Shown piece after piece: positions 1,993 through 43,326 of a stretch of 43,326 nucleotides of DNA. The stretch covers positions 1 through 43,326 of the forward strand of contig JAISER010000006.1 of NCBI GenBank assembly GCA_031263985.1, in the 5' to 3' direction. The notes beneath the pieces are model-generated. The model did not search any database. It saw only the letters and a program-made list of their open reading frames with translations, and was not told where the DNA came from. The first letter of the stretch is position 1. Each line of letters begins with the position of its first letter. A program made the translations under genes and the position numbers. The stretch comes from Clostridiales bacterium (GTDB lineage Bacteria > Bacillota > Clostridia > Lachnospirales > JAISER01).

Positions 1993-2012
1993 CATGATAA
2001 AGAACCTTATCT

Positions 2013-2125
2013 GAAATATCAAGGCATAAAAACCTTGGGGCTCCGCCCCAAACCCCGCCGGGGTCTTCGACCCCGGACCCCACGCCGCGCATTTGCGCGG
2101 CTTCATGAAACGATTGAATAGTCAT
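2013..2125 (-). repeat. Family A element (reverse orientation)
   Basis: This copy reads, on the minus strand, from ATGACTATTCAATCG (2125 downwards) through three GC-rich hairpins to a degenerate left end near 2013. Stems visible on the plus strand are GGGGC/GCCCC around 2037-2049, GGGGTC-TTC-GACCCC at 2060-2074 and CCGCGC/GCGCGG around 2085-2100. It separates tyrA from aroA. Confidence 0.8.
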
Positions 2126-2137
2126 AATATATTATAA

Positions 2138-2325: not shown

Positions 2326-2413
2326 ACGGAGCGGAGCGAGGTTTTTGAGGAAAGGGTTCCTAAGGGACGAAGTCCCTTAGCGGAGGGTTTGGGGGGCGGA
2401 GCCCTCCAAGGTC
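2326..2413 (+). repeat. Family A-related element with altered stems
   Basis: It shares the tail GGGCGGAGCC...CCAAGGTCTT with family A, but the stems differ. CTAAGGGAC (2360-2368) pairs with GTCCCTTAG (2372-2380) around a GAA triloop. GGGGGGC (2391-2397) pairs with GCCCTCC (2401-2407) around a GGA triloop, with one G-T wobble. Both triloops match those of typical family A copies. The element ends 31 bp before the aroA start. Confidence 0.65.
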
Positions 2414-2443
2414 TTCCACCCGCTTAAACGGAAAGGCGGAACA

Positions 2444-7145: not shown

Positions 7146-7165
7146 CGCTTCATCTCCATTTCGTT

Positions 7166-7217
7166 AAAGCTGACAAGCCCCCCGCCCTTTTTACCAGGCA
7201 GGGGGCTTGTCAGCTTT
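7166..7217. terminator. Very stable hairpin upstream of trkA
   Basis: A 17-bp perfect stem (AAAGCTGACAAGCCCCC at 7166-7182, complement at 7201-7217) with an 18-nt loop. It lies 21 bp upstream of the trkA start. No good T-run follows on the minus strand, and four T residues are at its plus-strand edge, so it may be a terminator between transcripts or a leader hairpin affecting trkA. Confidence 0.55.
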
Positions 7218-7242
7218 TCATTCAAATCCGTTAAAAACACGC

Positions 7243-7279
7243 CGAAGCGTTCAGCCCGCCGAGCGGCTCCAACGCTTCG
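7243..7279 (-). terminator. Hairpin after the small-lipoprotein genes
   Basis: CGAAGCGTT (7243-7251) pairs with AACGCTTCG (7271-7279). On the minus strand it is followed by GCGTG and five T residues, the layout of a factor-independent terminator for the lipoprotein gene at 7371-7529. Confidence 0.5.
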
Positions 7280-14419: not shown

Positions 14420-14555
14420 TTAAAGAAACCCTCCTTAAAGAGCGGTCGCGGCGCGCGCCGCCGTTCTTTTTCGATTATAAAGCTTTTCCAATAATATCCG
14501 CAAGCGTTTTTTTGTCAAAAAACAACTTATCTCGAAGTTTCACGGATAGCCTCAT

Positions 14556-14684
14556 TAGACCTGTCCCGGAATCTGACTTCGACGGATTCACGAATGGATT
14601 TTTCGCAACGCAAGGATTTCGCCAACGCCGCATTGTGGAAAATCCGCCGCGCGGACGCCGGAGTCAAATTTCGAGACAGGTCTA
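14556..14684 (+). repeat. Family B element
   Basis: A 129-bp element bounded by TAGACCTGTC...GACAGGTCTA. The inside matches the copy at 23925-24051, including CGGATTCA(C/T)GA, CGCATTGTG and CCGCCGCGCGGACGCCGGAGT. No coding frame is conserved. It looks like a miniature inverted-repeat element. Confidence 0.8.
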
Positions 14685-17868: not shown

Positions 17869-17920
17869 GCGATCATACCTTTCAAAGATTTTGAGGGGTT
17901 GAGGCGCTCAGTTAAAAATT

Positions 17921-18297
17921 ATGACTATCCAATCGTTTCATGAAGCCGCGCAAATGCGCGGCGCGGGGTCCGGGGTCGAAGACCCCAGCGGGGTTTGGGG
18001 CGGAACCTCAAGGTCTTTATGACTTGTCTGGATAGTCATTTTAGATAATATGACTATTCAATCGTTTCATGAAGCCGCGCGAACGCGCGGCGCAGGGTCC
18101 GGGGTCGAAGACCCCGGCGGGGTTTAGGGCGGAGTCCCAAGGTCTTTATGACTTATCTGGATAGTCATTTTAGATAATATGACTATTCAATCGTTTCATG
18201 AAGCCGCGCGAACGCGCGGCGCGGGGTCCGGGGTCGAAGACCCCGGCGGGGTTTGGGGCGGAGCCCCAAGGTCTTTATGACTTATCTTGATAGTCAT
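17921..18297 (+). repeat. Triple tandem array of family A elements
   Basis: Three 119-bp copies at 17921-18039, 18050-18168 and 18179-18297 are separated by the same 10-nt spacer (TTTAGATAAT), giving a 129-bp period. Each copy starts ATGACTAT(C/T)C and ends with (G/T)GATAGTCAT or close to it. Each has three hairpins: CCGCGC/GCGCGG, GGGGTC-GAA-GACCCC and GGGGC-GGA-(G)CCCC. Mutations are few, such as CCCCAGCGGGG in copy 1. It lies between the M32 and aminotransferase genes and contains no gene. Confidence 0.9.
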
Positions 18298-18347
18298 TTT
18301 AAAAATTATATAACCGCGCGAATTTTTCGACAGGTCGAGTTCTCCTT

Positions 18348-21719: not shown

Positions 21720-21721
21720 TT

Positions 21722-21832
21722 ATGTCTACACAATCGCCTCATGAAGCCGTGCGGCGCGGGGTCCGTGGCCGAAGGCCCCGGCGGGGTTTGGGGCGGAGCC
21801 TCTAGGTCTTTATGACTTGTTCAGATAGTTAT
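21722..21832 (+). repeat. Family A element inside the ABC importer operon
   Basis: A 111-bp copy with degenerate ends (ATGTCTACAC...GATAGTTAT). Its central stem is GGCC-GAA-GGCC in place of GGTC-GAA-GACC, so both sides changed and pairing is kept. It separates the ATPase gene from the binding-protein gene, 40 bp before the latter's start. Confidence 0.8.
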
Positions 21833-21871
21833 CTTTTTAATAATCATATATTTATTATAAGGAGAATAATC

Positions 21872-23548: not shown

Positions 23549-23597
23549 TCCGGCTTCGTTTAACGCTGACAAGACTCGAGCGAATCAATGCGGCTTA

Positions 23598-23697
23598 AGG
23601 TCTTGGGGCTCCGCCCCAAACCCCGCCGGGGTCTTCGACCCCGGACCCCCACGCCGCGCGTTCGCGCGTCTTCATGAAGAAACGATTGGACAGTCAT
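23598..23697 (-). repeat. Family A element (reverse orientation)
   Basis: Reads on the minus strand from ATGACTGTCCAATCG (23697 downwards). Stems CGCGCG/CGCGCG, GGGGTC-GAA-GACCCC and GGGGC-GGA-GCCCC are intact. The far end is degenerate. It follows the DUF1847 gene. Confidence 0.8.
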
Positions 23698-23705
23698 GTT
23701 ATATA

Positions 23706-23800
23706 TCAGAGCCTGTTTGAGATTTCGCTTTTAGATGATTTTTCGCCAAACGCGGAAATAAGCCGAAAAATGCGAAATGGAGATCTTAAACAGGCTCTGA
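23706..23800. repeat. Family C element, complete
   Basis: A 95-bp element with 13-bp perfect terminal inverted repeats: TCAGAGCCTGTTT at 23706 and its complement ending at 23800. The pairing continues imperfectly inwards (GAGATTTCGC against GCGAAATGGAGATC). No coding frame. It lies 9 bp from a family A copy. Confidence 0.8.
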
Positions 23801-23924
23801 TATTTTTTTATAAAAAAGCCCGCGTTCTATAAAAAGCGCTTTTAGCATATACTTCTATGTGGCGCTCGCATAGGCTCGTATGCTTTTCGATCGGACGCCA
23901 TAAAGCGGCCGTAAGGCGTAATAT

Positions 23925-24051
23925 TAGACCTGTCCCGGAACCTGACTTCGATGGATTCATGAGCGAATTTTTCGCAAGGCAACGAAACGAAAGCCGCATT
24001 GTGAAAAAATCCGCCGCGCGGACGCCGGAGTTAGATTTCAGGACAGGTCTA
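23925..24051 (+). repeat. Family B element, complete
   Basis: A 127-bp element with 11-bp perfect termini (TAGACCTGTCC and GGACAGGTCTA). It is homologous throughout to 14556-14684. No coding frame is conserved. Immediately right of it, TGAACTCAG (24053) and CTGAGTTCA (24119-24127) form another inverted repeat ahead of the M23 gene. Confidence 0.85.
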
Positions 24052-24150
24052 TTGAACTCAGCCTGAACCATGACCATCCGAACGGTCCTTTTCACGTCCG
24101 GTTTGGCTATGTCTCAAACTGAGTTCAGTATAAAACGAGAGGGGCTTGAC

Positions 24151-29949: not shown

Positions 29950-29962
29950 CGCCTAATTTCAG

Positions 29963-30298
29963 ATGACTATCCAAACAATTCATGAAGACCTTGGGGCTCC
30001 GCCCCAAACCCCGCCGGGGTCTTCGACCTCGGACCCCACGCCGCGCGAACGCGCGGCTTCATGAAACATTAGACAGTCATATTGGCAAAAAAACGAGCGC
30101 AAAGAATCCGTCGAAAATGAGATCTCGAACCAAACAAGTCATGAAGACCTTGGGGCGCCGCCCCAAACCCCGCCGGGGTCTTCGACCCCGGACTCCACGC
30201 CGCGCGAACGCGCGGCTTCATGAAGCCATTAGACAGTCATATTGGCAAAAAACGAGCGCAAAGAATCCGTCAAAAATGAGATCTTGAACAGGCTCTTA
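29963..30298. repeat. Two reverse family A copies in a tandem duplication
   Basis: Copies at 29963-30080 (ATGACTATCC...AGTCAT) and about 30131-30240 are each followed by the same flank (ATTGGCAAAAA...ACGAGCGCAAAG...GAGATC) at 30081-30130 and 30241-30298. A unit of about 160 bp was duplicated. The second flank ends in a family C right end (GATCTTGAACAGGCTCTTA). Confidence 0.8.
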
Positions 30299-35331: not shown

Positions 35332-35404
35332 CGTTAAACCGCGCGAAGCGGGGTCCGGGGACGAGTCCCCGGCGGGGTTTGGGGCGGCGCCCCAAGGTCT
35401 TTAC
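35332..35404 (+). repeat. Truncated family A element
   Basis: Lacks the left terminal repeat. It keeps CCGGGGA-CGAG-TCCCCGG (a stem changed from the typical GGGGTC-GAA-GACCCC on both sides) and GGGGC-GGC-GCCCC, then AAGGTCTTTA. It ends 41 bp before the next gene. Confidence 0.7.
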
Positions 35405-40012: not shown

Positions 40013-40025
40013 TACGTTCGAAAAA

Positions 40026-40055
40026 CGCCGTCGCCGGTTAAAAAACCGGTAGACG
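40026..40055. terminator. Bidirectional hairpin between acyl-CoA synthetase and DUF805 copy 1
   Basis: CGCCGTC-GCCGGTT and AACCGGTAGACGGCG pair with a short A-rich loop. The same hairpin recurs at the end of each unit (about 40850, 41757 and 42577). It can serve genes arriving from both sides. Confidence 0.65.
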
Positions 40056-40090
40056 GCGCGGCAATTATGTACTTCCTTTAATAAAATAGT

Positions 40091-40483
40091 CTAGAGGACG
40101 CTCTTTGGATTCGGTCCGAAACGGTTGTCTCCCGTTTCGCCTTCCGTCGCCATCAATACGATGAACCAAATCAAGCCAATAAACGGGACAAACGCAACAA
40201 AAATCCAATGCCAGCTCTTCCCAATATCATGTAACCGCCTTACCGCCGCCGCCAACGCGGGCAACAGCATAGTTAAATTATATACGAAATGAATAACTAT
40301 TAAAACCGCGCTTACCGGCGGTCGAAACAAAGCCGTTAAAAACAAATTAATCATCAAAGCCATTAAAACGAAATTAATAGTAGCATTAACTAAAAAGAAA
40401 AGCCAATATTCCCTACGTCTTGCGCGTCCTGAAAAATCGGCGTAATTTTTCAATACCTTTACATAATTGTTTACTAGTTCCAT
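40091..40483 (-). CDS. DUF805 membrane protein, copy 1 (canonical length)
   Basis: 130 aa. It opens with the family start MELVNNYVKVLKNYADFSGR, then ARRREYWLF, four hydrophobic segments, and the C-terminal NRFGPNPKS hallmark. The conserved AVRRLHDIG motif sits before the third segment. GGAGG lies 9 nt before ATG 40483; an upstream GTG overlaps the ribosome site and is rejected. Function of DUF805 proteins is not established. It is the shortest copy and lacks the duplicated C-terminal segment of copies 2 and 4, so it probably keeps the ancestral form. Promoter: TTGATA-17-TACAAT at 40524-40552. Confidence 0.9.
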   Translation of the reverse strand: MELVNNYVKVLKNYADFSGRARRREYWLFFLVNATINFVLMALMINLFLTALFRPPVSAVLIVIHFVYNLTMLLPALAAAVRRLHDIGKSWHWIFVAFVPFIGLIWFIVLMATEGETGDNRFGPNPKSVL

Positions 40484-40523
40484 ACAGCCCACCCTCCATA
40501 TTATCCTTCAAAGTTTTAATTAG

Positions 40524-40552
40524 ATTGTAGCGCCAAACGCGCGCCATATCAA
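40524..40552 (-). promoter_or_regulatory. Promoter of DUF805 copy 1
   Basis: On the minus strand TTGATA, 17-nt spacer, TACAAT. The spacer (TGGCGCGCGTTTGGCGC) is conserved in every unit. Confidence 0.75.
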
Positions 40553-40913
40553 TTTTTAATCCCCAAAAAACAGCGAAAAAAACCTTCGTTAGCCGCATTT
40601 TTCGGCCGCGTCTACACATTCGAACCAGCGTAACGTCGCCGTATTTTACTACGTAATCTCGCGCATCAGACCGCTGTCTTTGGCGACCACCGCTCCGCCA
40701 GGGCCTATGTCGTCATAGTTTATGACCTTCGCTCATATGAACTAGCGCTCTGAGTCCGTGTGAATTTTCTCAACCGTTCTCAACGCTCTTAAACCTCATT
40801 TTATAGTCCAACGCACTCGCGCCCTTACGGGGGGGCTGGCCGTAAAAAAACGCCACCCACCGGTTAAAATCCGGTAGACGGCACGGCAATTATGTACTTC
40901 CCTTATAAAAAGT

Positions 40914-41393
40914 TTAAGCTACGCTCTTGGGATCCGGGCCAAAACGATTGTCTCTCGCTTCGCCCGCTATCGCCATCCATATGAAGTAAGCGATCCCCGT
41001 TAAACATATGACGATAGACAAAATAACAAGCCAAAGCAGTCTATACTCAGTGTAGGCTCTCGTTTCGCCTGCTATTGCCCTCCATATGCGGAACACGATC
41101 CAGCCTCCTAAATATAAGACGCCAAGCAAAATAACAAGCCAAAGCCCGCTATGTCCAGTATCATGTATCCGCCTTACCCCAAGTTCCAGCATGTACAGCT
41201 GCATAACTGAATGATATAATTTAACAATAATCCCAAACGCTCCACCTATAATAGGCAATAGGGAAAAAAACCATAAAACTACACCAATAATAAGATTGGC
41301 TAAAACGAAAAGCCAATACTCCCTACGTCTTGCGCGGCCTGAAAAATTGGAATAATTTTTCAATACATGCACATAATTATTTACTAATCCCAT
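40914..41393 (-). CDS. DUF805 membrane protein, copy 2 (with internal duplication)
   Basis: 159 aa from ATG 41393 (after GGGGGCGGG). The N-terminal part matches copy 1 (NYVHVLKNYSNFSGRARRRE). The C-terminal part is longer because a helix-plus-motif segment occurs twice: LWLVILLGVLYLGG...IWRAIAGETR, then LWLVILSIVICLTG...IWMAIAGEARDNRFGPDPK. The second carries the family's C-terminal hallmark. This gives one extra membrane segment and may alter topology of the C-terminus. Confidence 0.9.
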   Translation of the reverse strand: MGLVNNYVHVLKNYSNFSGRARRREYWLFVLANLIIGVVLWFFSLLPIIGGAFGIIVKLYHSVMQLYMLELGVRRIHDTGHSGLWLVILLGVLYLGGWIVFRIWRAIAGETRAYTEYRLLWLVILSIVICLTGIAYFIWMAIAGEARDNRFGPDPKSVA

Positions 41394-41433
41394 AAAACCC
41401 GCCCCCAATAATATCTTTCAAAGTTTTAATTAG

Positions 41434-41462
41434 ATTATAGCGCTAAACGCGCGCCATATCAA
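41434..41462 (-). promoter_or_regulatory. Promoter of DUF805 copy 2
   Basis: TTGATA, 17-nt spacer, TATAAT on the minus strand. The -10 box is better than that of copy 1 (TACAAT). Confidence 0.75.
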
Positions 41463-41820
41463 TTTTTAACCCTCAAAAACCGCGAAAAAAACCTTCGTTA
41501 GCCGCATTTTGCAACCGCATTCTACATATTAAACCGAACCAGCGTAACGTCGCCGTATTTTACTACGTAATCTCGCGCATCAGACCGCTGTTTTTGGCGG
41601 CCGCCGCTCCGCCAGGGCCTATGTTGTCATAGTATAACCTTCGCTCGTATGAACTCGCGCTAAAAGTCCGTGCGAATTTTCTCAACCGTTCTCAACGCTC
41701 TTAAACCTCATTTTATAGTCCAACGCGCTCGCGCCCTTACGGCTGGCCGTAAAAAAACGCCGCCCACCGGTTGAAATCCGGTAGACAGCGCGATAATTAT
41801 GTACTTCCCTTACAAAAAGT

Positions 41821-42213
41821 TTAGGCTGCGCTCTTGGGATCCGGGCCAAAACGATTGTCTCTCGCTTCGCCCGCTATCGCCATCCATATGAAGTAAGCGA
41901 TCCCCGTTAAACATATGACGATAGACAAAATAACAAGCCATAGCAGTCTATACTCAGTGTAGGCTCTCGTTTCGCCTGCTATTGCCCTCCATATGCGGAA
42001 CACGATCCAGCCCTCCTAAATATAAGACGCCAAGCAAAATAACAAGCCAAAGCCCGCTATGTCCAGTATCATGTATCCGCCTTACCCCCAAGTTCCAGCA
42101 TGTAAAGCTGCATAACTGAATGATATAATTTAACAATAATCCCTACGTCTTGCGCGGCCTGAAAAACCGACATAATTTTTCAATACATGCACATAATTAT
42201 TTACTAATCCCAT
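41821..42213 (-). pseudogene. DUF805 copy 3, broken
   Basis: Nearly the same as copy 2 but disrupted. After RARRRDYC a stop follows, because about 89 bp corresponding to the first membrane segments are missing; the junction lies at a CCC shared by both ends. Two further single-C insertions in C-runs (near 42012 and 42087) break the frame. The promoter (TTGATA-17-TACAAT, 42254-42282) and start region are intact. Confidence 0.88.
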
Positions 42214-42253
42214 AAAACCCGCCCCCAATAATATCTTTCAAAGTTTTAATTAG

Positions 42254-42282
42254 ATTGTAGCGCCAAACGCGCGCCATATCAA
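42254..42282 (-). promoter_or_regulatory. Promoter of DUF805 copy 3
   Basis: TTGATA, 17-nt spacer, TACAAT on the minus strand, the same as in copy 1. It is retained in front of a broken gene. Confidence 0.65.
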
Positions 42283-42641
42283 TTTTTAACCCCAAAAAAA
42301 CCGCGAAAGAAACCTTCGTTAACCGCATTTTTCGGGCCGCGTCTATACATTCGAAACAGCATGACTTCGCCGTATTTTACTACGTAATCTCGCGCATCAG
42401 ACCGCTGTCTTTGGCGACCGCCACTCCGCCAGGGCCTATGTCGTCATAGTTTATGACCTTCGCTCGTATGAACTAGCGCTCTGAGTCCGTGTGAATTTTC
42501 TCAACCGTTCTCAACGCTCTTAAACCTCATTTTATAGTCCAACGCACTCGCGCCCTTACGGGGCTGGCCGTAAAAAAACGCCGCCCACCGGTTAAAATCC
42601 GGTAGACGGCGCGGCAATTATGTACTTCCCTTATAAAAAGT

Positions 42642-43121
42642 TTAGGCTACGCTCTTGGGATCCGGGCCAAAACGATTGTCTTTCGCTTCGCCCGCTATCG
42701 CCATCCATATGAAGTACACGATTCCTTCTAAACATGGGACGACAATCAAAGTCAGAAGCCAAAAAAGCTCGCTCCTCTCACTCCGTATTGACCATTTGTC
42801 TTCTACCACCATACATACCAAGTAGTCGATCCAGTTTAAACATGGGACGCCAAACAAAATAAAAAGCCATAGCCCGCTATGCCCAGTATCATGTATCCGC
42901 CTTACCCTCACCGCCAGCCTGGGTAGTAGCGTAGCTGAAGCATATAAGCTAAAAATAACATCAAACGCTATGCCTATAATAGGCAATAAAGAGAAAACCC
43001 CGAAAACTGCACCAATAATAATATCGGCTAAAAGGAAAAGCCAATACTCTCTGCGCCTCGCGCGGCCTGAAAAACCGGCATAATTTTTCAATACATGCAC
43101 ATAATTATTTACTAATCCCAT
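42642..43121 (-). CDS. DUF805 membrane protein, copy 4 (diverged, with internal duplication)
   Basis: 159 aa from ATG 43121, with GGAGGG 8 nt upstream. N-terminus (NYVHVLKNYAGFSGRARRREYWLF) and C-terminus (IWMAIAGEAKDNRFGPDPKS) match copy 2. The intermediate repeat has diverged: LWLFILFGVPCLNWIDYLVCMVVEDKWSIRS in place of the IAGETR form (written here only as a pattern: LWLFILFGVPCLNW, then MVVEDKW). Same extra membrane segment as copy 2. Promoter at 43162-43190. Confidence 0.9.
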   Translation of the reverse strand: MGLVNNYVHVLKNYAGFSGRARRREYWLFLLADIIIGAVFGVFSLLPIIGIAFDVIFSLYASATLLPRLAVRVRRIHDTGHSGLWLFILFGVPCLNWIDYLVCMVVEDKWSIRSERSELFWLLTLIVVPCLEGIVYFIWMAIAGEAKDNRFGPDPKSVA

Positions 43122-43161
43122 AAAACACACCCTCCATAATATCTTTCAAAGTTTTAATTAG

Positions 43162-43190
43162 ATTATAGCGCCAAACGCGCGCCATATCAA
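43162..43190 (-). promoter_or_regulatory. Promoter of DUF805 copy 4
   Basis: TTGATA, 17-nt spacer, TATAAT on the minus strand. The spacer DNA beyond it repeats that of the other units and runs off the window end, so a fifth unit is likely. Confidence 0.75.
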
Positions 43191-43326
43191 TTTTTAATCC
43201 CCAAAAAACCGCGAACAAAACCTTCGTTAGCCGCATTTTGCAACCGCATTCTACATATTAAACCGAACCAGCGTAACGTCGCCGTATTTTACTACATAAT
43301 CTCGCGCATCAGACAGCTATCTTTGG

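Follow-up and report, generated by a model that had tools for sequence, protein, structure and literature searches.

Family A in a Clostridiales contig, a MITE enclosing a palindromic hairpin core

What are the hairpin-rich repeats that recur along this Clostridiales contig, and why should so many of their stems differ while remaining paired? The window -- the whole 43,326-nucleotide stretch that was analysed, contig 95 of an assembly of 124 contigs and 2.135 Mb -- has among its genes a CspBA-like germination protease and other clostridial-type proteins. A preliminary description, made from the letters alone, had placed about ten copies or relatives of one "family A" in it, and all ten places exist:

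17920-18040, plus strand: first MITE copy of a tandem triplet, 121 bp, with inverted repeats of ~25 bp
18049-18169, plus strand: second MITE copy of the triplet
18178-18298, plus strand: third MITE copy of the triplet, with hairpins HP1 at 18203-18220, HP2 at 18228-18246 and HP3 at 18253-18269
17912-17919: left 8-bp target duplication of the triplet, TTAAAAAT, read directly in the sequence
18299-18306: right 8-bp target duplication of the triplet, TTAAAAAT, likewise read directly
2010-2126, minus strand: MITE copy, degenerate at one end
2354-2415, plus strand: free-standing core, GGGTTC-[ CTAAGGGAC gaa GTCCCTTAG ]-CGGAGGGTT-[ TGGGGGGC gga GCCCTCCA ]-AGGTCTT, without ATGACTATCC ends
21721-21833, plus strand: degenerate MITE copy, with one compensated pair (T-A to C-G) and one broken pair in HP2
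23589-23698, minus strand: MITE copy with one end truncated and rearranged
29962-30080, minus strand: MITE copy in reverse orientation
30121-30241, minus strand: reverse-oriented MITE copy, with one of its ends replaced
35350-35401, plus strand: free-standing core, GGGGT-[CCGGGGA cgag TCCCCGG]-CGGGGT-[TTGGGGC ggc GCCCCAA]-GGTCTT, without inverted repeats

They do not all form one family, however: the MITE copies belong together, but the elements at 2354 and 35350 are a core standing free of the ATGACTATCC ends.

Ends, duplications and copy number of family A

Family A is a MITE. Its unit is 121 bp long, with terminal inverted repeats of ~25 bp (ATGACTATCC…) and 8-bp AT-rich target duplications, and about 100 copies are present in the 2.1-Mb genome; a search for the inverted repeat as ATGACTATYCARWCRWKTCATRAAG, with up to 3 mismatches, gave 96 + 101 = 197 matches, and the reversed pattern gave 0. 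In 1.90 Mb of stretches, 90 elements with paired ends were identified, 65 of which measure exactly 119 bp from ATG to CAT; adding 1 nt on each side gives the unit that the 8-bp duplications flank. Five internal-deletion derivatives of 82 bp were found in the same 1.90 Mb. Among copies in the first half of these stretches, 43 of 71 have 8-bp duplications (matching at 7 or more of the 8 positions), where shuffled sequences give 2.5 on average and never more than 7. Three marks of a MITE -- terminal inverted repeats, target-site duplication, and many non-coding copies of one size -- are thus present, and the earlier suggestion of a mobile element is borne out by the repeats and duplications; folded as a single strand, the element lies 4.3 to 4.9 sd below its shuffles. 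An 8-bp duplication is the trace expected from a DDE transposase, and the ends and duplications together suggest that family A was moved in trans by an enzyme of that type.

Bacterial MITEs such as those of Coxiella (PMC5896051; reviewed in PMC10969869) are likewise short and non-coding, have inverted ends and target duplications, occur in about 100 copies and include internally deleted derivatives, here the 82-bp ones. Family A differs from them in carrying a multi-hairpin core that also exists alone, here and in other phyla, and in that no partner transposase has been seen for it.

The triplet is enclosed as a whole (17920-18298) by the perfect 8-bp duplication TTAAAAAT, and both of its inner spacers are TTAGATAA. 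The same 8-bp spacer also adjoins copies on two other contigs (L269, L260), so that tandem MITE arrays at separate loci share it, as if dimers or arrays of the MITE travel as one unit.

A transposase bearing ATGACTATCC ends, which the preliminary description had proposed looking for, was not found in 1.90 of the 2.135 Mb; nor was any convincing pair of inverted repeats enclosing a gene detected in those 1.90 Mb. The genome has transposase genes that we take to be IS630-, IS30-, IS5- and ISAs1-like, and none was seen with an end matching ATGACTATCC. Among candidate partners, the repeated transposases are IS630-/IS30-like by eye, the DDE_Tnp_1 matches have different ends, and the unpaired ATGACTATCC-type ends either enter the core or resemble chance matches. 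Some contigs end in or near MITE copies (e.g., L219, L256), so the partner could be unassembled.

The hairpin core and its stems

The interior of the MITE reads HP1–CGGGGT–HP2–CGGGGT–HP3–GGTYTT. Three hairpins had indeed been described, all with GAA or GGA triloops, but HP1 has a tetraloop. The core itself is GGGGT–HP2–CGGGGT–HP3–GGTYTT, hairpins in a row whose stems vary while the spacers between them are constant, and 28 of 140 HP3 matches in this genome lie in a core with no inverted repeat nearby. The type seen at 2354-2415 recurs at L265, L287 and L321, and several of the free cores carry other HP2 stems (CTAAGGGAC/GTCCCTTAG, TGGGGAC/GTCCCCA, CGGGGAC/GTCCCCG). Short tandem tails of AGGTYTT or GCCCCAAGGTTTTA are found 3' of the core at L063, L094, L099 and L157, and at L310 and L338, on the minus strand near one contig end, HP3 alone (AGGGTTTGGGGCGAAGCCCCAAGGTCTTAC) forms a 30-bp tandem array. 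In the copies read, the tails lie on the GGTYTT side; tandem growth at that end in several genomes fits replication slippage.

Within the MITE family, stem changes are random decay. Across the 65 equal-length copies, broken, G·T-kept and compensated cells number 13, 3 and 0 in HP1 and 26, 9 and 0 in HP2 -- together 39 that break the pair, 12 that keep it as G·T and none compensated -- while HP3 has 17 broken, 40 G·T-kept (32 of them at a single position specific to one subfamily) and 2 compensated. Since about half of random transitions in G-C pairs would stay as G·T, these counts give no sign of selection for pairing. The statement that stems differ yet stay paired consequently stands for the free cores at 2354 and 35350 but not for the inverted-repeat element, and the variant stem reported near 21722 proves to be paired at its compensated position and open at its broken one.

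Between core types and species the stems truly covary; random differences with loss of pairing, the outcome that the preliminary description had named as refuting its reading, are what is seen in the MITE family, not in this wider comparison. A search pattern from which HP2 had been left out gathered 102 distinct loci, and in 71 of the 102 distinct upstream sequences an HP2 stem scoring at least 6 lies directly at the linker, versus 0-4 in 20 shuffles. Because related sequences inflate pairing counts, more weight is put on the number of different stems, which is 52 distinct HP2 pairs. With positions set by foot and linker rather than by pairing, 268 of 357 cells are Watson-Crick (shuffled mean 193, maximum 211; a foot-anchored test on the window's own genome is not used, its anchor having fallen on a GGGT inside the stem), and the second pair of HP2 occurs there as C-G 12, A-T 11, T-A 9 and G-C 3 times. 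In MAG G465, 260 exact copies of HP3 have GTGGGGC/GCCCCAC in place of TTGGGGC/GCCCCAA, a compensated pair; this form is absent (0) from five of six other core-rich genomes and occurs 3 times in the sixth, G058.

Such paired changes had been taken as a sign of selection. They are real between core types and species, but they are absent from the young MITE family, and template switching in replication, which can create, maintain and repair hairpins with compensatory changes (PMC8794818), can give rise to them and could hold the stems paired without selection. One alternative goes further and sees only neutral palindromes, their pairing kept solely by this quasipalindrome correction and their spread due to ordinary duplication and gene transfer, the core having no dedicated mobility. 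The tandem expansions at its 3' end (L094, L310, L338) and the failure to find a mobility gene agree with that, and hairpins maintained by template switching do resemble these in having paired multi-base changes that are explained without strong selection (PMC8794818). Template switching, however, is a mutational process and not an element, and leaves dispersal unexplained; to place so many scattered copies, all with the same linkers, in unrelated genomes would take some mechanism of dispersal, and this alternative is considered unlikely.

Distribution of the core and the question of an RNA role

When 56 genomes of the order were searched with 126 bases, the core turned up, without MITE ends, in nine other genomes; their HP2 stems, including CAAGGGGC/GCCCCTTG and AAGCTTTT-type arms, differ yet pair. 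Among genome contigs more widely, the exact pattern GCGGGGTTTGGGGCNNNGCCCCAAGG is found in >111 stretches, under the names of several phyla and named Clostridia, Synergistaceae, Magnetococcales, Acetobacteraceae, Nitrosovibrio and Defluviitaleaceae, among others (names are those of the deposited record titles, MAG names as given). Matches in Streptomyces, Vibrio and Accumulibacter lack a clean HP2, may be chance or decayed, and were left uncounted. In a sample of 398 genomes of the phylum, searched with up to 2 mismatches, the core pattern occurs in 4: 130 times in the window's own genome and once in each of three others (3 of 397 when the own genome is excluded). Scattered core-rich genomes have 323, 182, 125, 106, 98, 70, 55 and, in the cultured isolate D16-76, 46 copies, with strands about balanced and zero matches in the reversed-pattern control. 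Phage and plasmid records gave no match at the E-value used, and viral contigs gave 4 among 2.9 million. High copy numbers in a few genomes and none in most are characteristic of mobile DNA rather than of a conserved RNA gene.

No description of the GGGGT-tagged core was found in the open literature searched, subscription journals being largely outside it. Searching that literature for the core strings gave no relevant match, the nearest being GTAG/CGTC palindromes, and neither the core nor the repeat family matched any of the RNA and repeat families searched.

RNA processing or anti-termination had been the other suggestion for these repeats, and with a role at mRNA 3' ends it makes up a second alternative, in which the hairpins would act, and be selected, in transcripts. 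A stable fold (z -4.9), covariation across species and two sites on one strand that weakly resemble terminators are in keeping with it. The core, however, shows no orientation bias to genes in its own genome (26:26 upstream and 26:26 downstream, from crude ORF-based gene calls), and neither its bias to the G-rich (replication) strand (62:51) nor that to the majority coding strand (48:37) is significant there. Rfam covariance models found no match to family A in the window; the scan's three matches lie elsewhere in it, all far below gathering scores and with E up to 1. With pairs freely broken within the MITE family and so patchy a distribution besides, an RNA function is not supported, and this alternative appears distinctly improbable.

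Proposed movement of the core

The preliminary description had also raised a REPIN-like element, and a third alternative is a REP/REPIN moved in trans by a RAYT, a Y1 tyrosine transposase. Several features recall such elements: a constant 5' foot on the hairpins, high copy number, and inverted (head-to-head) core dimers, present at L092, L105, L115, L098 and L143, in Synergistaceae and a Nitrosovibrio-named MAG, with none in the window. (In the Nitrosovibrio-named MAG, L092:3300-3625 and L105:2515-2840 are foldback palindromes of ~325 nt whose arms differ but pair.) Movement by a Y1 transposase is nevertheless not supported at home, where PF01797 has no match, and of 20 core-bearing genomes 11 lack the domain, as do 5 of 10 others. 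Of the five richest genomes, four are without it -- G017 with 182 copies, G061 with 125, G068 with 106 and G058 with 70 -- while the richest, G465, has an intact-looking Y1 frame, so that a RAYT may play a part in some genomes. The window family, moreover, has inverted repeats and 8-bp duplications, neither of which Y1 systems are known to make.

Published REP super-families have GTAG or CGTC feet (PMC3733652), and the foot here is GGGGT or CGGGGT, without the GTAG/CGTC tetranucleotide of RAYT-mobilised REPs. Compared with REP, BIME and REPIN palindromes of the GTAG/CGTC kind (PMC3733652, PMC3116915), the core is alike in its constant 5' foot, its copy number, its occurrence as monomers and inverted dimers and the variation of its stems between families, and unlike in its foot, in that several hairpins follow one another in direct orientation, joined by a recurring CGGGGT linker, and in that several of its richest genomes lack RAYT. 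Because Y1 is absent here and in several of those genomes, the core is not filed as a REP/REPIN, and movement by RAYT is regarded as very unlikely.

The reading that probably accounts best for these observations is that family A, with its 8-bp duplications and inverted ends of ~25 bp, is a non-coding MITE mobilised in trans by a DDE-type transposase, and that the sequence inside it represents one of a distinct set of palindromic repeats (GGGGT-HP2-CGGGGT-HP3-GGTYTT), captured here. That core would most likely spread as a selfish DNA element, folding in its single-stranded form and working like REP/REPIN, and would have hitched onto the MITE in its own genome. The lasting pairing of its stems may be due to a requirement for the hairpin in movement, to the copying of one arm from the other by template switching, or to both. 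More tentatively, and with somewhat less than even confidence, the core may represent a class of mobile palindromic DNA of its own that crosses phyla, does not depend on RAYT and is spread by a hairpin-recognising enzyme, and for which MITEs are usable as vehicles. No recurrent mobility gene was detected near the core across phyla; its neighbours are GC-rich frames, probably spurious, and apparently common families. If no RAYT moves the core, its enzyme would be one still to be found.

A near-identical, high-copy core in unrelated lineages would be unusual, as a non-coding palindromic element crossing phyla. Paired stem changes are usually taken to prove an RNA, and here they can accompany a DNA element without orientation bias; with hundreds of copies per genome, the core offers material for separating selection from template switching.

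Other repeats are present in the window. A second family, with inverted ends AGAGCCTGTTC...GAACAGGCTCT, lies at 23729-23800 and 30264-30295, and on contig L297 at ~7150-7270; it is probably another MITE. A third, of ~130 bp with inverted ends TAGACCTGTCC..., is found at 100-139, 14552-14684 and 23924-24055. From 40021 to 43326 the window consists of diverged ~0.9-kb units in tandem, and the one unit tested encodes a DUF805 protein.
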